Part shown: piece by piece, positions 6,143 to 25,721 of the stretch
Position numbering within the stretch: the first letter of the stretch is position 1
Layout of the letters: the number at the start of each line of letters is the position of its first letter
DNA from: Bacteroidales bacterium
GTDB taxonomy: Bacteria; Bacteroidota; Bacteroidia; Bacteroidales; UBA932
Length of the DNA stretch: 64,000 bases
Assembly: GCA_017626355.1 (NCBI GenBank)
Contig: JAGAIY010000023.1
Span: 51,386-115,385 of the forward strand
Reading direction: 5' to 3'
Made by a program: the position numbers and the translations under genes
Notes under the pieces: model-generated
The model's input: only the letters and a program-made list of their open reading frames with translations
Told to the model about the DNA's origin: nothing
Database searches by the model: none

Positions 6143-6823
6143 CTATTTAAGTCTGTCAGCGATATAATCAACCAAAGGCAGAAGCGACTGCGGATCCTTC
6201 CATTTCACCTGCTTCTCCTTCAGGAATGCATTAAGTTCCTTCTTGTCAACTCCCTGGAGTTCGGAAACATCTTTTTTCGCAGCATAGATCTGATAGCCCG
6301 GAACCACTATGTAGAGCTTGACGTTCAGAGGCAGGACCTCGCCATCATTTCTGGAGCGTTTCAGCTCCATATGGTTCATGTTCGTACGAGTGCCGCCTAT
6401 ACCCTCAAGAGAAGAAAGAGCCTGGGTAGAGATGGAATTGGAAGACGAACCGTAGGCTCCTCCGGTATTGTTCAGCTGCGCCACATCCACCACCGCCTCC
6501 TGAGCCACAAATCCTTTCTCTGATTTTGCCAGCACCTTCATCATGCTGCCTCCTACATTCGCATAATAGTCGTTGCCTATCCTGACCGAGAATATCTCGG
6601 AAGCCGCCGCCTCCCTGATCAGGTCACCGTCAATGAAATGAAGAGTGCTTTCAAACAGATGTACATTGTACTTACCGGCTTTAGGAGAACCCTGCAGCAC
6701 CTGGAGCTCTCCGTCAGTGAAGTCAGGATAAAGATAAGGCCATGTTGTAGTAGGCTCATACTGAGCGAAAAGCGATGTCGCTGACATCAGCATGACAATC
6801 GCGAGGAAAAGACGATGTCTCAT
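6143..6823 (-). CDS. Secreted protein of unknown function
   Basis: This 226-aa protein has a clear signal peptide (MRHRLFLAIVMLMSATSLFAQ, cleavage after about residue 21) and no membrane segment after it. It contains the repeated pattern GDLIREAAASEIFSVRIGNDYY and a closing helix (ELNAFLKEKQVKWKDPQSLL). I do not recognise a family. It is 8 nt upstream of the S8 protease and belongs to the left operon only: the right operon has no counterpart. It could be a periplasmic partner or protease regulator, but nothing in the sequence decides this. Confidence 0.7.
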   Translation of the reverse strand: MRHRLFLAIVMLMSATSLFAQYEPTTTWPYLYPDFTDGELQVLQGSPKAGKYNVHLFESTLHFIDGDLIREAAASEIFSVRIGNDYYANVGGSMMKVLAKSEKGFVAQEAVVDVAQLNNTGGAYGSSSNSISTQALSSLEGIGGTRTNMNHMELKRSRNDGEVLPLNVKLYIVVPGYQIYAAKKDVSELQGVDKKELNAFLKEKQVKWKDPQSLLPLVDYIADRLK

Positions 6824-6886: not shown

Positions 6887-8455
6887 TTAGAAGTTCCTTG
6901 CAACAAATGATGGCTTGAAGCCTGCAGCTGCAGTCTCAGCACCCTCGGAAGCATCCTGTCTTACGAGGTAGCACTCAGTGTAGGCATCATACCAGCCGGC
7001 TCCGTTGATATATGCACCGAACCATGCGGATGGAGCAGTGAGGACACCGCTCTCCGGCATCATGAGATCAACATAATCAGCACCGTTCACTGCGAAGAAT
7101 ATCACGTCCTCACCTTCTACGAAGAATACCTGTCCACTTGCGATGGTAAGGGTACCTGCATCACCGTTGAAGTTGGCATAGATGTTTCCTGCCGAGCATG
7201 GAAGACCCATGTAAGAGCCTGTGATCATCACGTTACCAGCCTCAGCATCATCGCTTTCAGCTACAGTGAAAGAAAGTTCGAGCGGACCATCCCAGTAGCT
7301 CACAGCCTCACCTGCGTATGTTCCGAGAACATCCTCAAGAGTGTAGCCGTATGAGTAGAGCATTGTGTGCTCCCATGCCTCACAGTCATTGCCGTAGATG
7401 TCATAAAGACAGCCTGCAGGAACACTGATGGTAACATATGCACCCACAACAGGAGGCTCAGGAAGATTCACTACGAAACCGAGGGTAGTAAGAGCGTAGT
7501 CAGCACCTGGGGTAAGAGTGTGAACTACAGTCTTGTTCTCGCTTTCATAGGTAACAGTCACGAACTTCTTGCTGCTGTAACCGGCTGCAGGATACTTGAA
7601 GTCAACAGGGATAACGAAACCATTGTCCCACTCTGCAAAAGACTCAAGGCCAAGCTCACCGAGCATAGGAAGCTCCACATATGAAATCGAGCCTGCAAAA
7701 CCCTGAGCAGCAGGGCCGCTCTCACTCATCACGAATGCACTCTTGTAGGCAGGAAGCTTGTGGCCTACCTGATCTACGAAAGCACCCTCAGCGATATCAA
7801 CTGTATAGTATGCACCTGTAGGGATCTCGGGAACAGTGATCTGTGCCATGTCATCAGCAACCTGAATATTCTCCTCAGGAACCACGACCTCTCCTGCAGG
7901 AGCAGCCGTAGTCTTGAAGTCAGAAGAATATGGAGCATAATAAGCGACTTTGATCTGGCCTGAACCTCTTGCAACTACCTCAGAGAAAGTGAAAAGAACT
8001 TCATTCTCCTCAGCCTGGACACTGGCATAAGCAGGAGCCACGTTGTCTGATGTAGTTACATTCGCAACAGCCACCTCGCCTGCAAAACCCATAGGGCTGC
8101 CTGCAACGGCATAGACCTGATATGTAGTGTTAGGCTCTGCTGATACCTCGAAAGTATATGAAGGGTTCTTTGCGTAATCAACAGTTCCCTGAGCTACACT
8201 TGTATAGCCTACCTCATAAAGAGTCGTAGGATCGAGTGTCTCGACAGCTTCAGACTCATCAACGAGGTATGAGTAGTAAGACGATTCACCTGAAGGAGTA
8301 ACTGTCACCTTGAATGAATTGTCTGTAACATCTGAGATTGAAATCTGCACGCTCGCAGCGGTATCCGGTGTGAGCGGAGTCTCCTCCGGTCCGTAAAGCT
8401 CGTCACAAGCCACGGTCAGAGAAAGAACTGAAAGTAAAAGTATGAATCTCTTCAT
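6887..8455 (-). CDS. Surface lipoprotein with Ig/fibronectin-like domains
   Basis: This 522-aa protein begins MKRFILLLSVLSLTVAC, a signal peptidase II site with the lipid cysteine at residue 17. Residues 35-135 look like a fibronectin type III domain (FKVTVTPSGESSYYSY ... TTYQVYAVAGSPMGF). Residues 140-240 and 260-370 look like Ig-like beta modules (FTFSEVVARGSG, TVDIAEGAFVD). The C-terminal 140 residues form a further beta-rich region. An acidic stretch after the cysteine (DELYGPEE) is compatible with export to the cell surface. It follows SusC, SusD and another lipoprotein, the place of accessory substrate-binding proteins (SusE/F-like). The ligand is not known. Confidence 0.75.
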   Translation of the reverse strand: MKRFILLLSVLSLTVACDELYGPEETPLTPDTAASVQISISDVTDNSFKVTVTPSGESSYYSYLVDESEAVETLDPTTLYEVGYTSVAQGTVDYAKNPSYTFEVSAEPNTTYQVYAVAGSPMGFAGEVAVANVTTSDNVAPAYASVQAEENEVLFTFSEVVARGSGQIKVAYYAPYSSDFKTTAAPAGEVVVPEENIQVADDMAQITVPEIPTGAYYTVDIAEGAFVDQVGHKLPAYKSAFVMSESGPAAQGFAGSISYVELPMLGELGLESFAEWDNGFVIPVDFKYPAAGYSSKKFVTVTYESENKTVVHTLTPGADYALTTLGFVVNLPEPPVVGAYVTISVPAGCLYDIYGNDCEAWEHTMLYSYGYTLEDVLGTYAGEAVSYWDGPLELSFTVAESDDAEAGNVMITGSYMGLPCSAGNIYANFNGDAGTLTIASGQVFFVEGEDVIFFAVNGADYVDLMMPESGVLTAPSAWFGAYINGAGWYDAYTECYLVRQDASEGAETAAAGFKPSFVARNF

Positions 8456-8467
8456 GATTACCCGAAT

Positions 8468-9346
8468 TTAGTTTTTAGTGAATGTTACACCTGAAACGAT
8501 GATATCAAAGTTACCTGCACCCTCACCTGATGTAACGTAAACCGCATAGAAGCTCCAGCCATAGTCTACAGCTACGAATGGTTTGCCAGCACCCTCACGG
8601 GTAAGAGTGATGGATGCCATATCAGTCTCATCATAGATGTATGAACCGTCGAACGCATAGAAGTATGCATTGTAGGTAGAGCTGTAAGGAAGCATCTGTC
8701 CGAGAGGGATAGTGATTGTGTTATGATCCTCTGATACAACGCCATAGATAAGGTCTGTAGCCATTGTGAAGCCTGGAGCGAGACCACGCATCCATACCTT
8801 TGTAAGGTCATTTGCATCCTTGGTGAACTCAGCCTCCCATGTTGCAGGACCGTTGAAGTATGACTCACCGCTTACAGTGTAAGTTCCGAGAACATCTGAA
8901 AGCGGATGGTCAAGGTCGGCGATAGTCACTGTACATGTGCTGTTGTGACCGATATTGAGGTCACCTGCGCTGACAAGGTTTACAGAGAAGGTAAGGTCAC
9001 CTGTGAACTCACCTGCCAGATCAACGATGTCGATCTCGATGACATTCGAACGTGCCTGACCGTCGAATACAACTGTCGCAGCTTCATTGACAAGCTTGAA
9101 GTTCGTACCTGCCGACGCAGTTCCGTCAACAACCTCATAAGCGACTGTAACACCTACAGGATCAATGGAAGCGACCGATACAGGAAGGGAGATCTTTCCT
9201 ACATTCTCGTTAACGATCATCGAACCCTTGTCGAAAGCTACGAAAGAATCCTCAGCTGAGAATACAGGAGTCTCGTTGAGCTTGCTGCATGAAAAGGCAG
9301 CTGAAAGTGCAAGTGCACAAGCTGTATATTTAAGTATGTTCTTCAT
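8468..9346 (-). CDS. Calx-beta domain surface lipoprotein
   Basis: This 292-aa protein has a lipobox (AAFSC, Cys20). Residues 35-145 resemble a Calx-beta domain: FDKGSMIVNENVGKISLPVSV, VTVAYEVVDGTASAGTNFKL, and ISVNL-like strands ending CTVTIADLD. The rest is a beta-rich domain (VLGTYTVSGESYFNGPATWE) whose start resembles that in the neighbouring 522-aa lipoprotein (VLGTYAGEAVSYWDGPLELS), so the two share a C-terminal module. It lies between SusD and that lipoprotein in the left operon. A surface binding accessory of the SusCD importer is likely, with substrate unknown. Confidence 0.75.
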   Translation of the reverse strand: MKNILKYTACALALSAAFSCSKLNETPVFSAEDSFVAFDKGSMIVNENVGKISLPVSVASIDPVGVTVAYEVVDGTASAGTNFKLVNEAATVVFDGQARSNVIEIDIVDLAGEFTGDLTFSVNLVSAGDLNIGHNSTCTVTIADLDHPLSDVLGTYTVSGESYFNGPATWEAEFTKDANDLTKVWMRGLAPGFTMATDLIYGVVSEDHNTITIPLGQMLPYSSTYNAYFYAFDGSYIYDETDMASITLTREGAGKPFVAVDYGWSFYAVYVTSGEGAGNFDIIVSGVTFTKN

Positions 9347-9363: not shown

Positions 9364-10803
9364 TTAATAACCTGCGTTCTGAACGAGGTTCGGGTTAACC
9401 TGAAGCTCTCTGAGCGGAATAGGCATAGCCCACTTGTTGTCACCCCATGGAAGGCTCTTTGCAGCGTCCGCACCGACGAAGTCAGTTCTTGACATGCTTC
9501 TCTTTGTACGACCGAGGTCGAACCAGTAGTGTGCCTCCCAAGCCAGCTCCTTCTGACGCTCAGCCCAGACATCCTCTACGGTATTTCCGATCTTGGCAGC
9601 GTTTGCAGGATCGTATACACGATTGAGGTATACGGTCTGAAGGTCAGTGAGAACGTTGCAACCTGGAACAGATGCTCCGTTAGCCATAGCCTCAGCACGG
9701 TTGAGATACATCTCGGAAAGACGAAGTACGATAGTGTTTGTAAGATCCGGAGTAGCCTGACCCTTACCTACATACTTTGCAGTCCAGTAAACGCCGTCCT
9801 TCTCCTGGAAGAGAGTTCCGCGGACATCGTCCTCTGCATAGAGGTCCATAAGGTCAGCTGAAGCACCTGCGTCACCGTAACCGTTAGGACCGCACATAGG
9901 TGAAAGTCCCTCACGATATGGATCGTATGAGTTCGACTTGCTTCCGTAGATCTCGAAGATCACCTCTCCACCTGCAGGAGCATCCTCAGCATAGCATGCA
10001 GCATCTGTAAGATCCTCTACAGTCCACATCTCGAACTTGCCGCTGTCGATTACCTTTGTAGCATAGTCAGCAGCATTCTGCCACTGCTGTGAGTAGAGAT
10101 AAACACGGCTGAGAAGAGCCTGGATAGCCTCCACAGAAGCTACTGCCTTTGAGTCTGCAACACCGCTTCTCACATAACCAGGTCCGATGATAGACTCGGC
10201 TTCTGTAAGGTCTGCGATAACCTGAGCATAAACTTCAGCTACAGTGTTTCTTGCAGGAACGGCCTGTGAATCAGTCTTGAGGACTACAGGAACTCCCGGA
10301 TGAGAAGCATCTGCCGTGAAGCAGTAAGGCTGAGCATAAGTCCTCACGAGGTCGAAGTGTGCGAGAGCACGGAGGAAAAGGCACTCTGCCTTGAGGTTGT
10401 TGAGATCCTGAACAGTGACGTCAGGTGTCTCCTTGCCCTCGAGATTGTCCATTACGTTGTTCACTGCAGAGATCACATAATATGCATAGCTCCAGAGTCC
10501 TGAAGTGTTGCTTGCATTGTAGATCATGTTATAGAGGTCGTTGCAGCGTCCTGAGTCAAAGTCTGAACCTATATACTTCTTTCCGTTCATGGTGTTCAGC
10601 TCATAACGAAGCACGAAATCTGCACCATACCAGTTATATGCAGCAAGTGGAGAATAAGCACCGGCTGTAGCCTGGTTGAGTCCCTCGTAGCTTGAAAGAG
10701 TCAGCTCGTTGCTCTGCGAAAGGATAGGATCCTCAACGAGGAAGTCCTGACATCCGCAGAATGTAGCGAGAGCCACAAATGTTATTACTATATATTTTTT
10801 CAT
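9364..10803 (-). CDS. SusD/RagB family surface nutrient-binding lipoprotein (left module)
   Basis: This 479-aa lipoprotein has a lipobox at Cys18-19 (ATFCGC) followed by QDFLVEDP, a common SusD start. N-terminal TPR-like helices with LKAECLFLRALAHFDLVRTYAQPY near residue 140 and the C-terminal region VWAERQKELAWEAHYWFDLGRT are diagnostic of RagB/SusD. It ends NPNLVQNAGY, the usual closing motif. SusD caps the SusC barrel and gives substrate affinity. It lies 12 nt downstream of the SusC gene. The associated protease suggests oligopeptides as cargo, which is an inference. Confidence 0.93.
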   Translation of the reverse strand: MKKYIVITFVALATFCGCQDFLVEDPILSQSNELTLSSYEGLNQATAGAYSPLAAYNWYGADFVLRYELNTMNGKKYIGSDFDSGRCNDLYNMIYNASNTSGLWSYAYYVISAVNNVMDNLEGKETPDVTVQDLNNLKAECLFLRALAHFDLVRTYAQPYCFTADASHPGVPVVLKTDSQAVPARNTVAEVYAQVIADLTEAESIIGPGYVRSGVADSKAVASVEAIQALLSRVYLYSQQWQNAADYATKVIDSGKFEMWTVEDLTDAACYAEDAPAGGEVIFEIYGSKSNSYDPYREGLSPMCGPNGYGDAGASADLMDLYAEDDVRGTLFQEKDGVYWTAKYVGKGQATPDLTNTIVLRLSEMYLNRAEAMANGASVPGCNVLTDLQTVYLNRVYDPANAAKIGNTVEDVWAERQKELAWEAHYWFDLGRTKRSMSRTDFVGADAAKSLPWGDNKWAMPIPLRELQVNPNLVQNAGY

Positions 10804-10815
10804 ATCCTTAGTCTT

Positions 10816-13800
10816 TTAGAATGATAATTCAACACCGCCTACGAATGACTTGGTCAATGGATAGATACCTGCTCCGGCTCCTGTCACACCCATCTCGGGA
10901 TCCCAGAAGTTGACATCATTGAAGCAGTAAAGATTAAGACCGCTGACATAGAATCTGAGGCCCTTGATATGAAGCTTGTCGAGAGCCACCTGAGGAAGCG
11001 AGTAAGAAAGGGTCACGTCCTTGATTCTGAGGTAGTCACCTCTTTCGAGCCATCTGTCGCTGAGAGCGGTAGACGAGCTTGTAGAGTTACCTGCGATCGG
11101 CTTAGGGTTTACACCCACATCACCCGGCTTCTTCCAGTAGTTGAGTGATGAAGCCATCTGGTTCATTGTCATCTGGGCACCGTCTGAGTTGAGGTAGCTG
11201 TGCTCGTTGAGGATAAGCACGTGGCAGCCTGCCTTGAACTCGAAGAATGCGCTGAGGCTGAGTCCCTTCCAGTTGAGTGAAGTATTGAAACCTCCGAGAA
11301 GCTTAGGCTCAGGTGAACCAGCATAGTACTTGCGTGCATCATTGTAGTTGTTAGAGAGCGAACCGTCCTCGGTAACCCAGAGAGCCTCACCGTTTGCAGG
11401 GTTCACTCCGTAGTAGTCAGACACCCAGTAAGTGTACATTGACTTTCCTACAACATGGTAAACGAAAGAACCGTTTGCGATTCTCTCCTCGCCGTTTGCA
11501 TCCGGCTCGACTGCGAGGTCGAGGATTTCAGTCTTGTTGTGAGCAAGGTTGAAGCCTGCTGTCCAGAGGAAATCAGGAGTAGAGATGATGTCAGCGTCGA
11601 GCTGGAACTCAACTCCGGAGTTCTTCATCGAACCTGCATTCTTGAAGTTTGTGCTGAAACCTGTTGTCTGAGGCACATTCACATCAAGGAGCATATCCTT
11701 GGTCACACGGTCATATACATCGAAGTTACCTCTGAGTCTGTTACCGAAGAAACCGAAATCGAGACCGACATTCCATGTAGAGTTCTTCTCCCAAGAAAGA
11801 TAGTCATTAGATGGCTGTGATGGTACCATACCTACGCCATTGTTGTACTGAGTAGAAGAATATACACCGTATGCCTTGTATGGGTTGATACCGTTGTTAC
11901 CGTTGAGACCGTAGCTTGCACGTACCTTAAGAAGGTCGAGCCAGCTGTCTGTGCTGTCCATCCACTTCTCGTTGCTGAGGTTCCATGAAGCCGAAGCCGA
12001 CCAGAAGAGACCCCACTTGTTCTTTGAACCGAAGAGTGAAGAACCGTCCTCACGGATTGTAGCCTGAACGAAGTATCTGTTGTCGTAGTTATAGTCAGCG
12101 ATACCGAAGAACGACATGAGGGTCTCGTTTGAGAAACCTACCTCTGACTCAACATTTGACTGAGGAGCTGTGTTCTGGTAAGGGATGTCAGGATTTACGC
12201 CCGGAGCATATACATATGAATACTCATACTTGTATGCGTTAGCCTCCTGACCGGCAAGAACACGGAGAGAGTGATAACCGCCGAATACATTAGAGTAATT
12301 GATTGTATTCGAAGTGGTGAGGTTTGTGTACTGGCTCTTTGTCGCCTGAAGTGTAGCATCAGAACCTGAACCGTCTGAAAGCGGGTTCCAGTAACGTCTG
12401 TCCTGAGTGAATGCAGCCTCGGCTGAGTTTCTAGTCTCGATCACGAGGTGCTTCACAGGCTCCCATCTGAGGAACATTGTACCGTTGAACTTGTATGACT
12501 TAGACCACTGGTCATCATACATTGCGGTAGCACGTGGATTGCTATATGAGTTTGAAGGGATGTTCACATTGTGGTTTCCGTTCTCGTCGTACTTTGGAAT
12601 CCAAGGGAGGAGGGTAAGACCTGCCCATGATGCATTTGCATAATAGAGCGACTGCATAGGGACGTCATTCTGGTCTGTGTAAGCGACATTGACACGTACA
12701 CCGGTCTCGAGGTTCTTGAGAAGCTTGTAATCAGCGTTCACACGAGCCTGAAGCTTTGAGTAGTCGATGCCGTAGAATACACCGTCGTTCTTGTGGTAAG
12801 AGACAGAAGAATAATAAGTACCTTTGCTGTTACCGCCCCTTGCACTGATCTCATACTCCTGAAGGATACCAGGTCTTGTGAAGTGGTTCATCCAGTTTGT
12901 GAGCTCACCTGTAAGGAGAGACATCGGACGATAGTAGGTGCTTGTAGGGTCATCCGGATTGTGTCCTGCGTTGATAGCCGCATCTCTCTGATATGAAAGG
13001 AGTTCCGATGCGTTCATCATACGGAAGCCGCTATCGCTCTGAAGCCATGACACACCATACTTCGCACGCGCATCGAACTGAGCCCTGCCCTGCTTACCGC
13101 TCTTTGTGGTAACGAGAATGACACCGTTTGCAGCACGTGAACCGTAAACGGCAGCCGCCGCAGCATCCTTGAGGACTGTGATCGACTCGATGTCGTTAGG
13201 GTTGATGGTCGCAATACCGTTTGAGGTATTGGTCATCTCACTTGTACCGCTTGAGATTACAGGAATACCGTCGACAACCCAGAGAGGTGTGTTGGAAGCG
13301 TTGATTGATGACGTACCACGGATACGGATCTGTGAAGCCGCACCTGGCTGACCTGAAGCAGCGGTAATCTGCACACCGGCGAGCTTACCCGAAAGGGCCT
13401 TGTCGACAGATGTTACAGGAGCGGATGCAAGAGTCTCACCCTTTACGGATGACACTGAACCTGTCACCGCTTCCTTTCTGGCAGAACCGTAAGCGACTAC
13501 CACTACATCATCGAGAGCAGTTGCATCTGCCTCAAGAGCGCAGTCCACTACAGAACGGCCATCAACCGCAACCTCAGCAGTCTTGTAACCGACAAAACTG
13601 AAAACGAGCACCGGATTTCCATGTGTTGGAACACTGATCGAATATGTACCGTCAGCACCTACCGAAGCTCCTGTCATGGTGTCCTTAACCCTGACTGATG
13701 CAAAAGGGATCTTCTCTCCGTTATCTGCATCATAGACAGTACCTGTGACCTTTGCTGTCTGCGCATTGGCAAGACCTGCTGTCAACAGCACCATGACGGC

Positions 13801-13827
13801 TGTGAAAAAAAGTCTGATTTTTTTCAT
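10816..13827 (-). CDS. SusC/RagA family TonB-dependent importer (left module)
   Basis: This 1003-aa outer-membrane protein has a signal peptide (cleavage after NAQ, residue 23). A CarboxypepD-reg-like domain follows at about 26-110, then VVVVAYG and a plug domain (SGKLAGVQI, IRGTSSINAS, LWVVDGIP, VLKDAAAAAVYGSRAANGVI). The barrel ends in GGVELSF with a terminal Phe. It would import large nutrients with SusD using TonB energy. The start codon is 96 nt from the edge of the invertible cassette. Its leader contains the left inverted repeat and no TAnnTTTG promoter, so in the orientation present here it is predicted to be off. First gene of a seven-gene operon. Confidence 0.93.
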   Translation of the reverse strand: MKKIRLFFTAVMVLLTAGLANAQTAKVTGTVYDADNGEKIPFASVRVKDTMTGASVGADGTYSISVPTHGNPVLVFSFVGYKTAEVAVDGRSVVDCALEADATALDDVVVVAYGSARKEAVTGSVSSVKGETLASAPVTSVDKALSGKLAGVQITAASGQPGAASQIRIRGTSSINASNTPLWVVDGIPVISSGTSEMTNTSNGIATINPNDIESITVLKDAAAAAVYGSRAANGVILVTTKSGKQGRAQFDARAKYGVSWLQSDSGFRMMNASELLSYQRDAAINAGHNPDDPTSTYYRPMSLLTGELTNWMNHFTRPGILQEYEISARGGNSKGTYYSSVSYHKNDGVFYGIDYSKLQARVNADYKLLKNLETGVRVNVAYTDQNDVPMQSLYYANASWAGLTLLPWIPKYDENGNHNVNIPSNSYSNPRATAMYDDQWSKSYKFNGTMFLRWEPVKHLVIETRNSAEAAFTQDRRYWNPLSDGSGSDATLQATKSQYTNLTTSNTINYSNVFGGYHSLRVLAGQEANAYKYEYSYVYAPGVNPDIPYQNTAPQSNVESEVGFSNETLMSFFGIADYNYDNRYFVQATIREDGSSLFGSKNKWGLFWSASASWNLSNEKWMDSTDSWLDLLKVRASYGLNGNNGINPYKAYGVYSSTQYNNGVGMVPSQPSNDYLSWEKNSTWNVGLDFGFFGNRLRGNFDVYDRVTKDMLLDVNVPQTTGFSTNFKNAGSMKNSGVEFQLDADIISTPDFLWTAGFNLAHNKTEILDLAVEPDANGEERIANGSFVYHVVGKSMYTYWVSDYYGVNPANGEALWVTEDGSLSNNYNDARKYYAGSPEPKLLGGFNTSLNWKGLSLSAFFEFKAGCHVLILNEHSYLNSDGAQMTMNQMASSLNYWKKPGDVGVNPKPIAGNSTSSSTALSDRWLERGDYLRIKDVTLSYSLPQVALDKLHIKGLRFYVSGLNLYCFNDVNFWDPEMGVTGAGAGIYPLTKSFVGGVELSF

Positions 13828-13841
13828 AAGCTGTGAATTTA

Positions 13842-13945
13842 GTTAAACATAAATATTGAATTGTATTATTGTGCCTGCCTAATATTACACTACACTTTAT
13901 AATATTGAGCACTGAATAATCTGCACTTAAAATCGGGCGTTTTAT
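13842..13945. repeat. Left inverted repeat of the invertible cassette
   Basis: The inner 23 bp (13923-13945, containing AAAATCGGGCGTTTTAT) is the exact reverse complement of 14783-14805. The outer end GTTAAACATAAATATTGA (13842-13859) exactly matches the reverse complement of 14859-14876. The middle, including TACACTACACT, matches with small indels. It forms the whole upstream leader of the left susC gene. The inner core has AAAA...TTTT dyad symmetry around GGG, as crossover sites of serine invertases often do. Confidence 0.92.
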
Positions 13946-13983
13946 CATGCGGCGTTTTTTTGGTATGAAAAACATTTGAAGAC

Positions 13984-14595
13984 ATGAAGATTTATGCATA
14001 CATCAGGGTCAGCACAGAAATGCAGACCTACGTCAATCAGGAGCATGAGATTCATCAGTATTGCCTCCGGCATGGGCTCAAGGTCACGGAATGGGTTTCC
14101 GAGTCAGTCTCCGGGACTGTTCCGATCGAGAAAAGGAGGCTCGGAAAGGTATTGCGGAAGATGGCTCGGGGAGATATGCTGATAGCCACAGAATTGTCGA
14201 GACTTGGACGTAACATGCTGATGGTCATGGCGGTATTGAACATCTGTTCATCAAAAGGCATTGCCATCCATACGATAAAGGACAACTTTGACCTATCCGA
14301 CAACATCAACTCAAAGATCATTGCATTTGCCTTTGCGCTTGCTGCGGAAATCGAGCGCAATCTCATCTCACAAAGAACGAAGGAAGCCCTTGCCGTAAGG
14401 AAACTCAGGGGCATGAAACTGGGACGTCCTCCAGGAAGTTCCAAAAAGAAAGTTTTATTCTGTAAGAATAAGGAGGATATCGTGATGATGCTGAATGAGG
14501 GAAAGAGCTGTACGGATGTGGCCAGAAGCCTTGGAATTCATAGAAATACACTAAGAAAATACCTGTATCAGGAAGAAGACAATGAAAAAAAATAA
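13984..14595 (+). CDS. Serine site-specific recombinase, DNA invertase type (Mpi/Hin-like)
   Basis: This 203-aa protein has the resolvase/invertase catalytic start YAYIRVSTEMQ with nucleophile Ser10. The conserved ELSRLGRN lies near residue 71, the dimerisation helix IAFAFALAAEIERNLISQRT near 120, and a C-terminal helix-turn-helix (SCTDVARSLGIHRNTLRKYL). The length and RTKEALAVRKLRGMKLGRPPG linker fit invertases rather than large integrases. Bacteroides Mpi is the closest described type by function. It lies inside inverted repeats between two susC operons, so it most likely flips its own segment. No clear promoter of its own was found. The start at 13984 gives the canonical N-terminus. Confidence 0.92.
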   Translation: MKIYAYIRVSTEMQTYVNQEHEIHQYCLRHGLKVTEWVSESVSGTVPIEKRRLGKVLRKMARGDMLIATELSRLGRNMLMVMAVLNICSSKGIAIHTIKDNFDLSDNINSKIIAFAFALAAEIERNLISQRTKEALAVRKLRGMKLGRPPGSSKKKVLFCKNKEDIVMMLNEGKSCTDVARSLGIHRNTLRKYLYQEEDNEKK

Positions 14596-14734
14596 ACTTT
14601 TTTTATCTCACGAATATTAAGTTAAATTTGAAAGTTCACTTAAAAATCCTCATGCTTTTTCATTTTCATCTTACAATTTTAAATCAGGTCACCGATTGAG
14701 ACGAGATTCGTCAATAAGCCGACTTTTTTCAGCT

Positions 14735-14766
14735 TTTGGAATTTTGAAAAATGTTTTTGACCTTTG
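14735..14766 (+). promoter_or_regulatory. Outward promoter at the right end of the invertible cassette
   Basis: TTTG at 14735-14738 is followed after 20 nt by GACCTTTG at 14759-14766, one base off TAnnTTTG. A start near 14773 would place the right inverted repeat inside the 5' leader of the right susC gene. No comparable promoter is seen on the minus strand at the left end. An additional TAAATTTG (14623-14630) lies further upstream with a poor -33 box. Confidence 0.6.
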
Positions 14767-14782
14767 TGGTTCGCGGTGTTAT

Positions 14783-14876
14783 ATAAAACGCCCGATTTTA
14801 AGTGCAAATTATTAGGTGCGTTATTATAGTGTAGTGTAAATAAAGCACAATAATTTAATCAATATTTATGTTTAAC
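14783..14876. repeat. Right inverted repeat of the invertible cassette
   Basis: Positions 14783-14805 are the exact reverse complement of 13923-13945 and 14859-14876 of 13842-13859. It fills the leader of the right susC gene, 18 nt before its ATG. The sequence between the two exact blocks is partly conserved with the left copy. Confidence 0.92.
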
Positions 14877-14893
14877 ATCTAAAAGTAACAACT

Positions 14894-17800
14894 ATGAGAA
14901 AAATGAAACTATTTTTCACAGCGTTGGCAGTCCTGATCAGTTCTGTGGCCTTTGCCCAGAATCTGAAGGTGACCGGTGTTGTAACTGATTCCAACAATGG
15001 AGAACCAGTTCCTTTCGCAGCGGTTCACGTTAAAGGCACCATGACAGGTGTCAGCACTGACGCAGAGGGTAATTACTCCATCACTGCTCCTCAGGACGGC
15101 ATTCTCGTATTCTCGTGTGTAGGTTATCAGACAATGCAGGTTGCAGTCGACGGCAAGCTGACCCACAATGTGGTGCTGGTATCCGAGCAGCTCGATGAAG
15201 TAGTGATGGTTGCTTACGGTACCGCAAAGAAGTCTTCTTTCACCGGTTCTGCAACATCTGTCAAGAGCGAATCAATCGAGAAGCGTACAGTTTCAAACGT
15301 AACAAAGGCTCTCGACGGTCTCGTACCGGGTGTGACCACAAGTGCAGGTTCAGGTCAGCCAGGTGAGGGTGCAAGCATTCAGATCCGTGGATACGGCTCT
15401 ATCAATGCATCTTCTTCACCTCTTTATGTAGTTGACGGTGTACCTTACGACGGTAGCATTTCAGCCATCAACCCTAACGACATCGAGTCACTCACAGTGC
15501 TCAAGGATGCATCTGCTGCAGCCCTCTACGGTTCACGTGGTGCCAACGGTGTCGTAATGATCCAGACAAAGAGAGGTCAGGCCGGCTACGTAAATGTAAA
15601 CCTCAAGGCTACATGGGGTCTTTCTTCAAGAGCTTACAAGCCTTACGACACTGTTGACCAGAGAGAGTTTGTAGAGCTCACTTATGAAGCACTCCGCAAC
15701 GGTTACATGTTCAACAGCGGTTACACAATGGATCACGCTTCAGAGGCAGCTATGGGCGACCTCAATGCAGCACTCGGCGGACAGCAGTACAACCCATTCA
15801 AGAACTACACATGGGATACTGTAATCGACCCTGCAACCGGCAAGGTACGCGCTGATGCCGTTTCTGCATACGATGAGAGCTGGCTTGACGAGATGACAAA
15901 CGCAAAGGCTCTCCGTCAGGAGTATCTCTTCGGTGTGAACGGTGGTAACGACAGGACCAAGTATGCCCTTTCATTCGGTTACCTCGATGACAACGGTATC
16001 CTCATCACCACAAACTTCAAGCGTTACACATTCCGCGCAAGTGTTGATCAGGAGATCACAAACTGGATGAAGGCCGGTGTTTCAACATCTTACGGTTACA
16101 CCAAGTCTAACCAGCAGACAATCGCTGAGGGTTCATACATAAGCAACGCATGGTACACCGCTCAGTTCATGGCTCCTATCTATCCTGTATATCTCAAGGA
16201 TGAGAACGGTAACACCGTAATGGATGCCAACGGCGCCGCTCTTTATGACTATGGTGAGTCAGGACGTCCTAAGGCTGCAAGATTCAACAACATCGCAGAC
16301 CTCTATGACAACAAGTACGGTCTCTGGAGAGACAACTCAAGCTCACGTGCAAACCTCGTTCTCGGTGGCGACAACCCTGTAATGGGCGTATTCAGAGGCC
16401 TCGAGTTCTCAGTAAACGCCGGTTTCGACGTTACTAACGCAGCTTCTTCAGAGTACAACAACCCTTACCACGGTGACGGTGCCCAGACAGGCGGTTCAGT
16501 AGCAAAGGCTAACGGCCGTACAATGTCTTACACAATCAACCAGATCCTCAAGTACGACAGGACATTCGCAGAGAAGCACCATGTTCTTGCTCAGGCAGGT
16601 CACGAGTACTACAACTACGAGTACCGCTACCTCGCAGCTGACCGTACAGGTGTATATCCTGGTATCGACGAGCTCGACCCTACTACAAACGTAACAGGAA
16701 ACCGCTCATACAGATTAGATTACCGCATCGAGTCATACTTCGGCCGTCTCTCATACGACTTCGCTGACAAGTACTACTTCGAGGGTACATGGCGTACTGA
16801 CGGATCTTCACGTTTCCACAAGGATTACCGTTGGGGACAGTTCTGGTCACTCGGTGGTTCATGGAGAATCTCAGAGGAGCAGTTCATGAAGAATGCTGGT
16901 TGGGTTGACAACATGACACTCCGTCTTTCTTATGGTCAGCTCGGTAATGATGCCCTTAAAAACGGTAGTTCCCAGAACTACTACGCATGGCAGTCATTCT
17001 ATGACCTTACATGGCCTAACGCCAACAACCCAGGTGCTATCGTAAGCAAGCTCGAGAACACTCAGGTATCATGGGAGAAGAAGAGCACGTGGAACGCAGG
17101 TATCGAGGCAACCCTCTTCAACCGCTTCCTCCAGTTCTCTGCAGAGTACTATCACTCAGTTACTTCTGACATGCTCCTTTCTTACCCGCTTCCGATGTCA
17201 ACCGGTTTCACAGGTTACAACGCGAACGTAGGTTCAATGCAGAACCAGGGATTCGAGGCATCATTCCGCTTCAACTGGGCTAACAAGCAGAACTTCGGTG
17301 CAGGTTCTACTCTCATGCTCTACAGAAACTGGAACAAGGTGCTCGCCCTTACAAAGGATGACAAGATCACTTCAGGCTATCAGGTGATCGAGGTCGGAAG
17401 ACCTATCTACTCTTACCTCCTCCCTAAGAACGCAGGTGTAGACCCTGCAACAGGTGCACAGCTCTACTGGGCATATGAGAAGGATGAGAACGGAGACAAG
17501 GTCGAGGGTTCTGACTACATCACTTCAAACAAGACCAAGGCTAACGAGTCACGTTACTATGAGGGAAGCCGCGAGCCTAAGCTCCAGGGTTCATTCGGTT
17601 CTGACTTCCGCTTCGGTCCGGTTGACTTCTCGTTCCTCACTACATTCTCTGTCGGCGGTAAGACTTACGACAGCCTTTACGCAGGTCTGATGGAGGTTAT
17701 GTACACAGGTGATACATGGAGCAAGAACACTCTCCGTCGTTGGCAGAAGCCAGGTGACGTTACTGACGTTCCTGCCGTATTGTTCAACTCAGGCCGTCTC

Positions 17801-18049
17801 GGAACTGACAAGGACCTCATCGACGCTTCTTACTTCGCAATCAAGTCTGTACAGCTCGGATATACCTTCCCTAAGAGATGGACCAACGCTGCAAAGATCA
17901 AGGCTCTCAGAATCTTCGTCAATGCTGACAACGTTGCCATGTTCAACCACCTCAACGGTCTTAACGTACAGTACAACTTCTCAGGTGGTACAGGCTATAC
18001 ATACACTCCTACCAGAGTTATTTCAGCAGGTATCGACATTAACTTTTAA
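14894..18049 (+). CDS. SusC/RagA family TonB-dependent importer (right module)
   Basis: This 1051-aa outer-membrane protein has a signal peptide (cleavage after FAQ, residue 22) and a CarboxypepD-reg-like domain (LKVTGVVTDSNNGEPVPFAA). The plug contains LDGLVPGVTT, IQIRGYGSINASSSP, LYVVDGVPYDG and VLKDASAAALYGSRGANGVV. The barrel ends ISAGIDINF. Codon choice is strongly biased (CTC, AAC, GGT), as in highly expressed genes. It starts the right operon and receives the cassette promoter in the present orientation, so it is predicted to be on. It resembles the fourth-operon SusC at 31772 more than the left SusC in its N-terminal domain. Transported substrate unknown; peptides are likely from context. 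Confidence 0.93.
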   Translation: MRKMKLFFTALAVLISSVAFAQNLKVTGVVTDSNNGEPVPFAAVHVKGTMTGVSTDAEGNYSITAPQDGILVFSCVGYQTMQVAVDGKLTHNVVLVSEQLDEVVMVAYGTAKKSSFTGSATSVKSESIEKRTVSNVTKALDGLVPGVTTSAGSGQPGEGASIQIRGYGSINASSSPLYVVDGVPYDGSISAINPNDIESLTVLKDASAAALYGSRGANGVVMIQTKRGQAGYVNVNLKATWGLSSRAYKPYDTVDQREFVELTYEALRNGYMFNSGYTMDHASEAAMGDLNAALGGQQYNPFKNYTWDTVIDPATGKVRADAVSAYDESWLDEMTNAKALRQEYLFGVNGGNDRTKYALSFGYLDDNGILITTNFKRYTFRASVDQEITNWMKAGVSTSYGYTKSNQQTIAEGSYISNAWYTAQFMAPIYPVYLKDENGNTVMDANGAALYDYGESGRPKAARFNNIADLYDNKYGLWRDNSSSRANLVLGGDNPVMGVFRGLEFSVNAGFDVTNAASSEYNNPYHGDGAQTGGSVAKANGRTMSYTINQILKYDRTFAEKHHVLAQAGHEYYNYEYRYLAADRTGVYPGIDELDPTTNVTGNRSYRLDYRIESYFGRLSYDFADKYYFEGTWRTDGSSRFHKDYRWGQFWSLGGSWRISEEQFMKNAGWVDNMTLRLSYGQLGNDALKNGSSQNYYAWQSFYDLTWPNANNPGAIVSKLENTQVSWEKKSTWNAGIEATLFNRFLQFSAEYYHSVTSDMLLSYPLPMSTGFTGYNANVGSMQNQGFEASFRFNWANKQNFGAGSTLMLYRNWNKVLALTKDDKITSGYQVIEVGRPIYSYLLPKNAGVDPATGAQLYWAYEKDENGDKVEGSDYITSNKTKANESRYYEGSREPKLQGSFGSDFRFGPVDFSFLTTFSVGGKTYDSLYAGLMEVMYTGDTWSKNTLRRWQKPGDVTDVPAVLFNSGRLGTDKDLIDASYFAIKSVQLGYTFPKRWTNAAKIKALRIFVNADNVAMFNHLNGLNVQYNFSGGTGYTYTPTRVISAGIDINF

Positions 18050-18068: not shown

Positions 18069-19658
18069 ATGAAAAAGATATATATAGTACTTCTTGCTGC
18101 TGTCCTTGCTATGACAACATCCTGCAAGGAAGGCACTCTTGACACCGCTCCTACAGATGCGGTTGCCGGATCTACTCTCCTTGAGACAACCGAGGGTGGC
18201 TATATGGCTCTCAACGGTGCTGTAAGACGGCTGTGGCAGTGGGGTGTTACCGTAACAGGTAACACACACCAGTGCATCGGTCCTCAGGGATACTCTCTTA
18301 TGGCAGACCTCATGGGTGAGGATATGGTGATGGCAGGCCAGGGTAACGGATGGTTCTGGTTCGACTACCTCTATGATGTCAAGGATGCATACACCAGCGG
18401 TGCATGGCGTCCATACGACTGCTGGAACTACTACTACACTCTCATCTGCCAGGTGAACTACATCATCGCTGCGGCTGAGACAATGCAGGGCGATTCTGCT
18501 GACGTAGACTATATCATGGGTAACGCTTATGCTTTCAGAGCATATGCATACCACTACCTTGAAATGGTCTATGCCCGCAGCTACATCGGCCACGAGGACA
18601 AGCTTGGTGTTCCAGTGCTTCTCGAGCCTACAACATCTTCAACAACAGGTAAGCCACGCTCTACCAACAGACAGGTTTACGAGCAGATCGTAAGCGACAT
18701 CAACACTGCAATCTCCCTCCTCGAGGGCAAGAGCCAGAAGCATTGCTCACACATCGACTACTATGTTGCGAACGGTATCAAGACACGTATCGCTCTCTAC
18801 ATGGGTGACTGGCAGAGTGCATATGACGCAGCATCAAAGGCTCTCGGCGGAAGCAAGGTCATCACTACTGACATCCTCAGCGGTTACAATGACGCTGATG
18901 CGAAGGACGTGATGTGGGGTGCTGAGATCATCGAGTCTCAGGGTACTACCAACCCTCAGTTCCTCGCTCACATGGACATCGCTTTCGGCGGTTACGGTGA
19001 GGCTGCAAGAAAGTGCTGCAGCGAGTGGCTCTATGAAAGGATTCCTGCAGGCGACGCTCGTAAGCAGTGGTGGAACTATGAGGACCTCAATGCAAACGGC
19101 AACACTCTCGTAGGATATCAGCAGTACAAGTTCAGATTCGCTGACGCTTCTAACCCATACACAGGTGCTGACCATATCTTCATGAGGGTTCCTGAGATGT
19201 ATCTCTCTATGGCAGAGGCAGCTTGCCGTCTTGGCAACGATGCTGAGGCTCAGTCTATCCTCAACGAGTTCATGAGCTACCGTGTATCAGGAGAGTTCAC
19301 TTACGACTGCTCAGGCAAGACAGGTACAGCTCTCGGCGCTCTTACAACTGACGAGACTGGATCACTCCTCGAGGAGATCATCCTTCAGCGTCGTATCGAG
19401 CTCTGGGGTGAGTTCGGCCGCGTATTCGACATCAAGCGTCTCCGCCAGGGATTTGTCCGCACTGTAGAAATGGGACACCCTGCACAGGCCCTCCTCCCTA
19501 CTCTCAAGCTCAACGACCCTGAGTCATTCGACTGGGTACTCACTATCCCGCAGGCTGAGATCGACGCCAACCCATACATCCTCCAGAACCCTGTAGGAAG
19601 TGTTGAGGCTGACGGCCAGGGTGACGATCCTGCACTTGCTCCGAAGGTTGAGGAGTAA
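18069..19658 (+). CDS. SusD/RagB family surface lipoprotein (right module)
   Basis: This 529-aa lipoprotein has a lipobox at Cys19 (AMTTSC). SusD signatures are NAYAFRAYAYHYLEMVYARSYIG near residue 160, FMRVPEMYLSMAEAACRLGN near 375, and LQRRIELWGEFGRVFDIKRLRQG near 440. The closing ANPYILQNP matches the family end. It starts 19 nt after the SusC stop. It shares WELFG/FMSYRVxxxxYDCS features with the SusD of the fourth operon (35022-36671), so these two pairs are close relatives and likely bind related ligands. Confidence 0.92.
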   Translation: MKKIYIVLLAAVLAMTTSCKEGTLDTAPTDAVAGSTLLETTEGGYMALNGAVRRLWQWGVTVTGNTHQCIGPQGYSLMADLMGEDMVMAGQGNGWFWFDYLYDVKDAYTSGAWRPYDCWNYYYTLICQVNYIIAAAETMQGDSADVDYIMGNAYAFRAYAYHYLEMVYARSYIGHEDKLGVPVLLEPTTSSTTGKPRSTNRQVYEQIVSDINTAISLLEGKSQKHCSHIDYYVANGIKTRIALYMGDWQSAYDAASKALGGSKVITTDILSGYNDADAKDVMWGAEIIESQGTTNPQFLAHMDIAFGGYGEAARKCCSEWLYERIPAGDARKQWWNYEDLNANGNTLVGYQQYKFRFADASNPYTGADHIFMRVPEMYLSMAEAACRLGNDAEAQSILNEFMSYRVSGEFTYDCSGKTGTALGALTTDETGSLLEEIILQRRIELWGEFGRVFDIKRLRQGFVRTVEMGHPAQALLPTLKLNDPESFDWVLTIPQAEIDANPYILQNPVGSVEADGQGDDPALAPKVEE

Positions 19659-19690: not shown

Positions 19691-20635
19691 ATGAACAAGA
19701 TATTCAAGACTTTTCTTGCTGCATCAGTGAGTCTTCTCGCTGTAGCATGTAATCTTGATCAGGTAAACGATGTCTATACAGCCGAAGGCAACGAGCCGTC
19801 AATGCTCCAGACCGTATTCAACGAGACTGAACTTGACGCGACTCTCGAGACAATCGCTATTCCTGTTGTAAGATCGAATTCATCAGAGGCTGCCACTGTG
19901 AATCTCACAGCAACCCTTCCTGCAGGCATCACTGTATCAGGAACAGCAGTCGAGACACTCGAGAACGGCAACGTTGTCTACAGCACATCTGTATCATTCG
20001 CTGCCGGCGAGGCTCAGACAGGTTGCGTCCTCAACATTTCAGAGATGGCTGTAGGTTCCACCTACAAGGGTACAGTTGCCATCGCTGAGGGTGAGAAGGT
20101 AAACGAGCACAAGGTAACCATGTCAACTGCCTTCACTCTTGCTAAGGCCTATACATGGGTTTCTCTCGGTCAGGGAGAATGGTTCGACCAGCTTTCACTC
20201 ATGTCTGACAGCAGCTATGGTGTTCAGACTGTAGAGGTCATGAAAGCGGAAGGTTTCGAGCGTTACCGTATCATGAATCCATATGCAAATACCGATCAGC
20301 TTGCTGCAGCTTGGGGAGCATCGTCACTTGGCGGAAACAAGAGTTCTTTCATCGAATTCTGGGTTCTCGATAACGGTGTTAACGTAGCATGGGACGGATG
20401 GTGGTTCCCTGGTATTCTTTATGACGGAGACGGCACTGACATCAAGGCATATCTCCCATCTGCACTTGACGCATCACTCGCCGAGGAGGATGTAAAGAGT
20501 CTTTTCGTAGAGGAGAAGGTTGTCGAATTCCATCCTTACTGGTATATCGACGGTCTCGGCGGCTTCGGTACAAAGTACCCTTGCTTCCTCACTCTTCCGG
20601 GAGGACCATCCATGTCAGAAGTTCTTGGTATATAA
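19691..20635 (+). CDS. Surface lipoprotein accessory to SusCD (right module)
   Basis: This 314-aa protein has a lipobox at Cys20 (LLAVAC). After a beta-rich N-terminal domain comes YTWVSLGQGEWFDQL and then VEVMKAEGFERYRIMNPY near residue 185. A comparable run, SWDEIGTGTFVDYNFSNV with KIYRNSNDRTLYRVDDPY, occurs in the 832-aa lipoprotein of the fourth operon, so the two share a domain of unknown name. Its place after SusD is that of SusE-like ligand-binding proteins. A hairpin follows it before the protease gene. Confidence 0.75.
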   Translation: MNKIFKTFLAASVSLLAVACNLDQVNDVYTAEGNEPSMLQTVFNETELDATLETIAIPVVRSNSSEAATVNLTATLPAGITVSGTAVETLENGNVVYSTSVSFAAGEAQTGCVLNISEMAVGSTYKGTVAIAEGEKVNEHKVTMSTAFTLAKAYTWVSLGQGEWFDQLSLMSDSSYGVQTVEVMKAEGFERYRIMNPYANTDQLAAAWGASSLGGNKSSFIEFWVLDNGVNVAWDGWWFPGILYDGDGTDIKAYLPSALDASLAEEDVKSLFVEEKVVEFHPYWYIDGLGGFGTKYPCFLTLPGGPSMSEVLGI

Positions 20636-20732: not shown

Positions 20733-23297
20733 ATGAACATCATCAACCGTTTTTCCATTCTTTTCCTGTGTCTTGCAGCCGCAGGTTGTGCCGCTGAAAT
20801 CGATGAAGGCATCCGTGACGGGGCCGAGGGCACAACGACCGCTGAAATCAGGACAGTCAACATACTGTTCTCAGAGGACACGGCAGGTCTCCTTGAGAAA
20901 TCCGAGGGTATGCAGACCAGATCCGAAGGTTTGAATTCCGCCTTGAGCGAAGCCGGTATAATCTCCATTTCGAGACTCTTCCCTGATGCCGGCGTATTCG
21001 AGCCGAGGACCCGCAAGGCCGGCCTGCACAGATGGTACAAGGTCAGATATGTTGAAAGCCCTGACGTCAAGTCAGCTGAAGGGTTCGGAAATCTTCCCGG
21101 AGCCGAGATTGTGGAGCCGGAAAGGGAAATAGCCCTCAACACGATGTTCAATGATCCGAAATCAGGACAGCAGTGGCATTACCTGAACGACGGCAGCCTG
21201 TCTTCCGACTTCAAGGCCGGGGCTGATATAAATGTAACTCCTGTCTGGGACAATTACACAACCGGCGACAGATCCGTCATTGTTGCGGTTGTCGATGCCG
21301 GCGTAGATTACGCTCATGAAGATCTCGCAGCAAATTATATTGACGGAAAGAATTTCGGAACCGGTGGAAAGATTACTCCTGACGACCATGGAACTCATGT
21401 GGCCGGAACGATTGCCGCAGTGAACAATAACGGCGTCGGAGTCTCTGGCATAGCAGGAGGAGATGCGGAAGCAGGAGTGCAGGGAGTAGGAATCCTTGCA
21501 TGTCAGATCTTTTCCGGCAACAATCCTGTCGGAGGTGCGGAAGCCATCAAATGGGCAGCAGACCACGGTGCTGTCATTGCCAACAACAGCTGGGGCTATG
21601 TATTTGAATCTGAGAACGATGCGATGAATGCTAACATTTCCGCAGACCTTGCTGCCGCCATTGACTACTTCATCATGTACGCAGGATGCGACAACGACGG
21701 CAATCAGCTTCCTGAAAGCCCGATGAAAGGAGGTGTCGTTCTTTTCAGCGCAGGAAATGACGGCTGGAGGTACAATCCTATAGGTGAGTATGAACCTGTG
21801 ATAGCTGTGGGTTCTATCGGCCCTGATTATACAAGAGCATACTACTCCTGCTATGGCGACTGGGTGGACATCGCTGCTCCGGGAGGCACGGCCAAAGTCA
21901 ATAAAGGCATGGTTTACAGCACTATAGTAGGAAACAAATATGACTTCATGCAGGGTACATCCATGTCTTGCCCTCATGTGAGCGGAGTTGCGGCGCTGAT
22001 TGCTTCCTATTTTGGAGGCCCCGGTTTCACCAATGACATGCTTGTCGAGAGACTTCTCGGCGGTGCAAGAAAGGATGCGCTGCCGGCATCTGCCAAGATC
22101 GGTCCGCTTGTGGATGCACTCGGTTCGTTCTGCATGGGAGGTACCGCTGCTCCGGACAAAGTTGAAGATTTCGATCTGTCGGCTGTAGGCAACAGGCTTG
22201 ATGTGAGCATAAAGGTTACTGCAGATGCCGATGATGTAAAGACTTATGAGTATGCTGTGCTTGTTTCCGAGGATCAGGCCCTTCTTCAGGGAGCCGATCT
22301 GAAAGCCTTGCCTGAGGGAGTGAAGGAATACAGGTTCAAGGTCGGTCTGAAAGAAGTCGGGGAATACCTGCAGATCGCCATTCCGGGCCTTGAATTCGAC
22401 AAGGAATATCATGTTGCGGTGGCTGGATACGACTATCTGCAACATAGCTCAGCCCTGTCCGAAATAAAGCAGATAAGGACAACCGCCAACAACGCTCCCG
22501 TGATCAGGCCTCAGCAGGAGACTGCAGATCTCGTTATAAAGCCATATGAGACCCTTACTCTCAGCTTCGAGATACTTGATCCGGAAGGAGAGAATGTGGA
22601 AGTGACTCTTGCCGAAAAACGAAACGGTCTGAACCTTCAGAAGGGAGCGGACGGAACATGGACACTTACCATAACCGGCCGTCTTTTAAAGGCCGGTGCA
22701 TATGACTGCACCATTCATGTGACTGATCCTCACGGACTTGCCGCTGATTTCAGCTTCACTTTTGAAGTACTTGACAATGCTGTCCCAGTGCAGTCGAAAG
22801 AGTTTGACGACCTCTATGTCGAAGGTACCGGAAAGACTTTCACATACAATCTTGACGAGTACTTTGCAGATCCTGAGGGCGAGACCCTGACATATAAAAC
22901 AAACGGCGACATCGGTAAGGTCGCAGACGTTACCATCTCCGGCAATCAGCTGGTTATCAATATCAAAGGCTATGGTCCCGCCACTTTGGAGATAACCGCT
23001 TCCGATTCCGGAAAAAGCTGCACTGTACAACTTAGGATAATGGTGAAGGATCCGACAGACCTTATAGAACTTTATCCTGTACCCGTAAAGGACATACTCA
23101 ATGTGAGGACAGGTCCTGCAGCAGAAACGAAGATTGAAATCAGGTCGGCATCAGGCCATATAGTCCATCAGGAGAGCGAATCCGTGAGTGCCTTCGACCC
23201 TGCCGCCATAGACATGAAGCATTGTGCTCCAGGCAGATACGTCGTAAGAGTGACCATCGGAGACAATACAGTAGAAAAGATAATATCCAAGATTTAA
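20733..23297 (+). CDS. S8 subtilisin-like protease with T9SS type A sorting domain (right module)
   Basis: This 854-aa protease carries Asp188 (VVDAGVDYAHEDL), His219 (DDHGTHVAGT) and Ser410 (GTSMSCPHVSG). It has a propeptide at about 30-150 (LFPDAGVFEPRTRKAGLHRW), Ig/cadherin-like domains at about 480-770 (NNAPVIRPQ, DNAVPVQSK), and a C-terminal T9SS type A domain (LYPVPVKDILNV ... HCAPGRYVVRV). It is collinear with the left protease, and both share the FNDP..xxQWHY junction. The N-terminus has a textbook lipobox (CLAAAGC, Cys19), which is odd for a T9SS cargo. It precedes the PorV-like barrel by 5 nt. Extracellular or surface proteolysis is predicted; specificity is unknown. Confidence 0.9.
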   Translation: MNIINRFSILFLCLAAAGCAAEIDEGIRDGAEGTTTAEIRTVNILFSEDTAGLLEKSEGMQTRSEGLNSALSEAGIISISRLFPDAGVFEPRTRKAGLHRWYKVRYVESPDVKSAEGFGNLPGAEIVEPEREIALNTMFNDPKSGQQWHYLNDGSLSSDFKAGADINVTPVWDNYTTGDRSVIVAVVDAGVDYAHEDLAANYIDGKNFGTGGKITPDDHGTHVAGTIAAVNNNGVGVSGIAGGDAEAGVQGVGILACQIFSGNNPVGGAEAIKWAADHGAVIANNSWGYVFESENDAMNANISADLAAAIDYFIMYAGCDNDGNQLPESPMKGGVVLFSAGNDGWRYNPIGEYEPVIAVGSIGPDYTRAYYSCYGDWVDIAAPGGTAKVNKGMVYSTIVGNKYDFMQGTSMSCPHVSGVAALIASYFGGPGFTNDMLVERLLGGARKDALPASAKIGPLVDALGSFCMGGTAAPDKVEDFDLSAVGNRLDVSIKVTADADDVKTYEYAVLVSEDQALLQGADLKALPEGVKEYRFKVGLKEVGEYLQIAIPGLEFDKEYHVAVAGYDYLQHSSALSEIKQIRTTANNAPVIRPQQETADLVIKPYETLTLSFEILDPEGENVEVTLAEKRNGLNLQKGADGTWTLTITGRLLKAGAYDCTIHVTDPHGLAADFSFTFEVLDNAVPVQSKEFDDLYVEGTGKTFTYNLDEYFADPEGETLTYKTNGDIGKVADVTISGNQLVINIKGYGPATLEITASDSGKSCTVQLRIMVKDPTDLIELYPVPVKDILNVRTGPAAETKIEIRSASGHIVHQESESVSAFDPAAIDMKHCAPGRYVVRVTIGDNTVEKIISKI

Positions 23298-23302
23298 GGC
23301 AT

Positions 23303-25719: not shown

Positions 25720-25721
25720 AT

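Follow-up and report, generated by a model that had tools for sequence, protein, structure and literature searches.

A predicted invertible promoter cassette with its own serine invertase between two divergent susCD-protease operons in a genus of Bacteroidales

The flagellar switch Hin of Salmonella carries invertase and promoter inside one inverting segment; its control is direct for one operon and runs via a repressor for the other. The phage tail-fibre systems Gin, Cin and Pin use a serine invertase to choose reciprocally between two gene sets, inverting coding segments and not a promoter. At the sapA locus of Campylobacter fetus, one promoter lies between divergent homologous surface genes, of which there are more silent copies; there, a 6.2-kb segment recombines through long homologous 5' regions and is not known to hold a dedicated invertase. 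Recombinases designated Tsr are tyrosine recombinases. Hin itself is a serine invertase (PMC11868660). In Bacteroides fragilis, Mpi is described as acting on invertible capsule promoters (PMC4747536; PMC12632263), with 13 regions inverted (PMC4747536). The same two papers attribute SusC/SusD phase variation by inversion to Tsr0667 (PMC4747536; PMC12632263), a master invertase said to cause multiple inversions of the shufflon type, which affect three SusC/SusD gene clusters and nine further regions (PMC4747536). A search of titles and abstracts, with subscription papers mostly outside its reach, returned no account of a cassette between two divergent susC operons.

We analyzed such a cassette in a 64,000-nucleotide stretch of DNA (the window) from an uncultured gut bacterium, which belongs to contig C17 of a 1.70-Mb genome assembly that is 74% complete. 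Enzyme, sites and promoter are all found in less than 900 bp, and the ORFs and Pfam revealed no other recognised gene besides the invertase between the two sites (Table 1). As in an inverton, a promoter, here recognised by its sequence, lies between inverted repeats and next to a gene that it could read. We consider it very probable that this is an invertible promoter cassette encoding its own serine invertase, one flip of which would swap the susCD-protease operon that is read. According to the proposed mechanism, the two sites face outward, and the invertase would recombine them at their asymmetric central dinucleotide, CC, and so flip the 0.86-kb segment. From the single promoter, transcription would pass outward across one of the sites and enter the adjoining susCD-protease operon. 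The operon on the other side, without a promoter of its own, would be silent, and each flip would exchange the two expression states. A sequence-only reading had already proposed a switch. It is supported, within what sequence and its comparison can tell, by the recurring and conserved anatomy, the promoter on one side, the matched core dinucleotides, the occurrence of orthologous operons both upstream and downstream of the invertase, and one hybrid junction. From these data we infer that the enzyme flips this segment today and that the left operon is off.

Table 1. Positions of the cassette and of both flanking operons in the window
Feature	Position	Strand	Remark
Outward promoter TTTG-N20-GACCTTTG	14735..14766	+	ends 19 nt short of right core
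Left crossover site, perfect 24-bp inverted repeat	13922..13945	-	core AAACG-CC-CGATT read outward
Right crossover site, inverted copy of left site	14783..14806	+	
Serine invertase, 203 aa	13984..14595	+	inside cassette; clade tied to susC genes
Leader element TCAATATTTATGTTTAAC of right operon	14859..14876	+	outside cassette
Same leader element TCAATATTTATGTTTAAC, before left operon	13842..13859	-	
Right susC (TIGR04056)	14894..18049	+	predicted on in present orientation
Right susD	18069..19658	+	
Right operon, 314-aa protein	19691..20635	+	no Pfam match
Right operon, S8 subtilase	20733..23297	+	T9SS sorting tail
Left susC (TIGR04056)	10816..13827	-	predicted off in present orientation
Left susD	9364..10803	-	
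Left operon, Calx-beta protein	8468..9346	-	
Left operon, 522-aa protein	6887..8455	-	no Pfam match
Left operon, 226-aa protein	6143..6823	-	no Pfam match
Left operon, S8 subtilase	3546..6134	-	T9SS sorting tail
Left operon, protein with weak beta-barrel match	2613..3533	-	below Pfam cut-off

Relatives of the invertase at E <= 1e-20 occur in 128 of 400 sampled genomes of the genus. Our set comprises each of the 63 matches listed at E <= 1.8e-63, together with 17 weaker relatives picked by hand; three partial, clade-like matches (G089, G225 and G179, 58-60% identity) fell below the E cut-off and are outside the counted loci. In a tree of 89 sequences, the 63 strong matches and the window gene form a clade of 64 genes (support 100/99). 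A susC gene was found within 2.5 kb of 61 of these 64, and 45 are flanked on both sides by divergent susC genes, each no more than 2.5 kb away. Sixteen have one susC, with the contig ending within 2.5 kb on the other side in 11 cases, and three have none, two of them at most 0.9 kb from a contig end. None of the 17 weaker relatives is flanked by susC. Outside the genus, the best-scoring match from 393 genomes drawn across the order is 55% identical, and no susC was seen near any of eight such loci checked, which have short flanks only. No relative was found in viral contigs (0 of 14 candidates). Judged by these loci, the cassette anatomy recurs in dozens of related genomes.

The window invertase contains a full resolvase domain (Pfam PF00239, Resolvase, 2e-31, residues 3-144), the N-terminal catalytic domain of small serine recombinases. 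Using phmmer, it matched the Tn3 resolvase 5cy1 (2e-14) and the DNA-invertase 4m6f (1.9e-12), and matches to transposase models were weak only. A C-terminal HTH_23 match (2.1e-4) reached 21.4 of 24.6 bits, slightly under the Pfam cut-off. The enzyme had been called a Hin-like serine invertase, which is right at the superfamily level only. Its best NCBIfam match is the Mpi family (NF009949), with 258 bits against a curated cut-off of 272 bits; Hin orthology was rejected on the basis of this profile, and the enzyme is best classed as an Mpi relative scoring below the family cut-off. None of the five clade members scored reached the Mpi equivalog cut-off, the four mates of the window enzyme having 257, 269, 232 and 256 bits. 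Among relatives outside the clade, four scored 306, 288, 295 and 328 bits and two others 244 and 248. The clade invertases are mostly open. Stops inside the match are listed for four of 63 (G324:C19, G206:C47, G371:C1 and G351:C41, one stop each), and some cassettes may be locked. A canonical promoter before the invertase was above threshold in only 2 of 63 loci, and the canonical promoters found would not explain its expression in most loci. For a defined gut community, it is reported that the promoter of an inverton generally could not read an invertase nearby (PMC11892184). The window invertase is likewise not readable by the cassette promoter, because this promoter lies downstream of the gene and points away.

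The repeats described by the sequence-only reading (13923-13945 and 14783-14805) are real and perfect, and their length is 24 bp instead of 23 bp. They form part of a pair of 37-bp stretches with 92% complementarity. Across loci, the site consensus in outward reading is approximately AAACG-NN-CGTTTAnnAGTGCA. Small serine recombinases require identical central bases, and an asymmetric pair leads to inversion and not to deletion. The central dinucleotides found are CC, CT, AC, GA, TC and GT, none of them palindromic. They differ between loci, and left and right were identical in all 33 loci with both sites scored, compared with a mean of 7.8 and a maximum of 17 in 10,000 shuffled pairings. All 33 loci consequently have the asymmetric 2-bp core, the same in both sites, that characterizes serine-invertase sites. 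Shared descent of both arms adds to this agreement, and decaying arms would not be expected to retain it.

The outward promoter lies at exactly the coordinates first proposed for it. With a matrix trained on the other loci, only one position in the 64 kb, both strands counted, outscores it. The right side scores 19.6. On the left, reading outward from the invertase start and across the leader, the best score is 0.8 and TTTG is absent. This bears out the claim that the left leader is without a recognisable promoter. The minus-strand maximum over cassette and left leader is 7.2 and is located within the invertase gene. For the other loci, the matrix was applied in leave-one-out fashion with a threshold of 11.3, the 99th percentile of shuffled sequence. 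The scan took in 47 loci with a right-site score of at least 13; scoring of left regions was confined to 33 of them, those with a left site as well, three left inner regions being too short, and nine loci with a left site alone stayed outside the scan. A promoter inside the right site was above threshold in 44 of 47 loci, usually 16-22 nt from the core, and below it in three. Inside the left site there was none in the 30 loci whose left inner region was scored. Leaders held a promoter in 1 of 33 loci on the left (L134, strong, 21.7) and in 1 of 47 on the right. Mainly because the promoter stands on one side only across loci, we predict that the left operon is off in the window genome, where the right operon would be on. 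An unusual sigma factor could use a promoter missed by the matrix. Both window leaders contain TATGTTTA, which is near TAnnTTTG, and the left leader nonetheless lacks any TTTG.

Both flanks indeed begin with divergent, adjacent susC and susD genes (TIGR04056, PF07980, PF14322), as had been read from the sequence. The two leaders (13828-13922 and 14806-14893) have AGTGTAGTGTA and the exact 18-bp element TCAATATTTATGTTTAAC in common, and similar elements stand upstream of susC in many related loci. RNA structure prediction gave no signal in these leaders (z-scores 0.13 and 0.78). Pfam revealed no glycoside hydrolase or lyase, as would mark a polysaccharide utilisation locus, in the 11 window operon proteins (ORF 23222-24160 left out); subtilases are present instead. 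Among 86 proteins chosen from 132 downstream of susD in related operons, 18 belong to the subtilase family, 11 have a T9SS tail and 5 are Peptidase_Mx1, and no glycoside hydrolase appeared among the 25 families listed of 34. The RagAB system imports peptides. Since the operons contain proteases and no glycoside hydrolase was seen, peptide import as in RagAB is likelier than glycan import, and the operons presumably import peptides released by the subtilase. The proposed reciprocal choice would not be between two unrelated nutrient systems, since the two are alternative versions of one system type, susCD with a T9SS-sorted subtilase. Three further observations concern the surroundings. Right beyond the right operon, a C10 peptidase with a Spi-type inhibitor domain adjoins a serpin (24496-26945). 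An AbiH family abortive-infection protein flanks the left operon (1427-2401). Two more susC genes, at 27168 and 31772, have no crossover site nearby and promoter scores of 1.3 and 13.5, respectively, the second being a promoter-like match.

Related operons were found on either side of the invertase. The 45 loci in which both operons are present yield 32 pairs with a susC in common (75% identity or more), the shared gene lying on opposite sides in 18 and on the same side in 14; these pairs are not independent, since one cluster of seven operons supplies many of them. The right susC of the window is 91% identical to the upstream susC in genome G270, and the left susC is 79% identical to the downstream susC in G032. 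Opposite-side orthologues differ in partner operon and cassette too, and exchange could mimic flipping. A few more distant pairs retain both partners at 45-64% identity, some on the same side and some on opposite sides. A more direct trace comes from G403, which has a third site approximately 12.6 kb from the invertase. The inner flank of this site agrees with the left-hand inner flank of the cassette at 99 of 100 positions, and its outer flank is of the right type in 38 of the first 39 bases, compared with 28 of 100 matches to the left type. The switch from left type to right type falls within the core. Recombination at the core would be the best account of this hybrid junction, and decay of a second cassette could produce such a trace too. 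In 5 of 63 loci (G367, G315, G029, G293 and G099), a contig end coincides with the core start or lies no more than about 75 nt from it, the end in G367 being placed by comparison with its relative G334. A second G367 contig stops within a site, four bases in. The repeats of G029 and G293 are longer than 65 bp, and length alone may account for the contig ends there. Flipping of the window segment itself is a prediction from these comparisons.

Other comparisons were discarded. Identity over 60 nt in 43 orthologous halves was too near random to use, both for inner flanks (0.55 same side, 0.40 opposite, baseline 0.44) and for outer flanks (0.53, 0.50 and 0.50). In 16 hand-picked pairs of orthologous halves, the main BLAST alignment starts -11 to +68 nt from the core in 11, one of which (L124/L127) has homology inside the cassette as well. 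The boundary lies away from the core in the other five (L083/L098, which is split, L122/L125, L081/L112, L107/L115 and L105/L107). Same-side pairs behave like opposite-side pairs, and the boundaries reveal modular halves, not flipping. L081/L112, a candidate for the same operon pair in opposite orientation, was lost once a short second alignment was excluded. Separately, two related sites lie inverted and about 540 bp apart at L164:4150-4718 (G392:C16), each preceded by a ACCTTTGCA box on the minus strand, and the surrounding 8 kb gave no match to susC or to an invertase.

None of the 32 locus pairs that share one operon share the other (maximum 44.5% identity), which is a new observation, and the DNA homology of the window with G270 or G032 is mostly limited to the invertase and the operon in common. 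It seems that relatives retain the switch and exchange the attached operons. We also newly observed, by site and promoter scores, promoterless susC genes behind lone sites in several genomes: no promoter above threshold was found in G076 (-3.8), G315 (-4.6), G403 (0.7), G222 (2.7), G092 (4.8) and G099 (6.7). This suggests that lone-site operons form a store of silent operons. We further examined 14 orthologues of the two window susC genes with enough upstream sequence and no invertase in the examined stretch. Five have a site score of at least 14, four of them without promoter and the fifth (G161) with a promoter-like match (14.2). Seven have a site score below 12, with the promoter threshold passed by L228, L235, L237 and L243 and not by L225, L226 and L236; site-less orthologous susC genes can have their own promoter (L235 20.2, L228 17.6, L243 15.0). 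The two with intermediate site scores have promoter scores of 10.5 (L230) and 19.4 (L232). Near a contig start, L163:60-340 (G355:C69) shows a site, a strong promoter (19.7) and susC with no invertase in reach, possibly another cassette truncated in the assembly.

The two-way switch might be the simplest state of a shuffling among three or more operons, in which the invertase would also join the cassette to promoterless lone-site susC operons. This reading, which would extend the best explanation and not exclude it, has in our view an even chance of being correct. It would accommodate the six lone sites, the hybrid junction in G403 and the complete lack of shared second partners. However, no more than two sites, allowing 1 mismatch, occur in the window genome at its 74% completeness, the lone-site susC in G161 does have a promoter-like match, and gene transfer with homologous recombination in shared leaders could explain partner exchange between species equally well. 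In its widest form the proposal is a genus-wide expression-site system, for which the balance of arguments is level. The invertase clade with its one promoter would handle susCD-protease operons, each with half-site and leader, as interchangeable cargo. Two operons would be docked and alternately expressed, others would wait promoterless behind lone sites and enter via core recombination, and partner pairs would turn over faster than the operons.

It is improbable that the cassette is fixed, with relic repeats, a promoter that permanently drives the right operon and a left operon under its own unrecognised promoter. The conserved element common to the leaders could hide an unusual promoter, but neither the matched cores of 33 of 33 loci nor the near-equal number of operons on both sides would be expected of relics, and most clade invertases are open. 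A transposon or integrative element inserted between two susC genes, with the inverted repeats as termini, is most unlikely: the recombinase, the terminal inverted repeats and the separate histories of cassettes and operons would fit, but the gene belongs to the small serine recombinases of the invertase/resolvase type and has weak transposase-model matches only, 61 of 64 clade members adjoin susC, and the window segment holds no other recognised gene. We retain the promoter cassette inverted by its own enzyme as the preferred explanation.

Promoter inversion is familiar in gut Bacteroidales, mostly as on/off control or in large shuffles. The arrangement described here is a new, genus-wide form of it: one flip would swap two complete outer-membrane uptake and protease systems, and the arrangement is common to many species of the genus, whose genomes here are metagenome-derived. 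Phages and the immune system plausibly target surface receptors of this kind, and hence a reciprocal switch could alter the exposed receptor without losing function. Because partner operons turn over, long-read metagenomes allow a direct test of how a phase-variable repertoire evolves.

Compared with known systems, the cassette resembles Mpi in the recombinase family by profile (NF009949) and in the promoter carried within inverted repeats. We also take the AACG-NN-CGTT type core of these sites to resemble the Mpi site. Different from Mpi, which inverts 13 regions (PMC4747536), the enzyme here sits inside its own segment between two operons. The Tsr0667 shufflon likewise switches the expression of SusC/SusD outer-membrane systems (PMC4747536), whereas here a serine recombinase is placed inside the promoter cassette. 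As in Hin, a serine invertase is carried inside the inverting promoter segment, but both operons would be read directly, in turn. Direct reciprocal control is shared with sapA of Campylobacter fetus, the difference being the invertase inside the segment, and in contrast to Gin, Cin and Pin it is the promoter that would be inverted.
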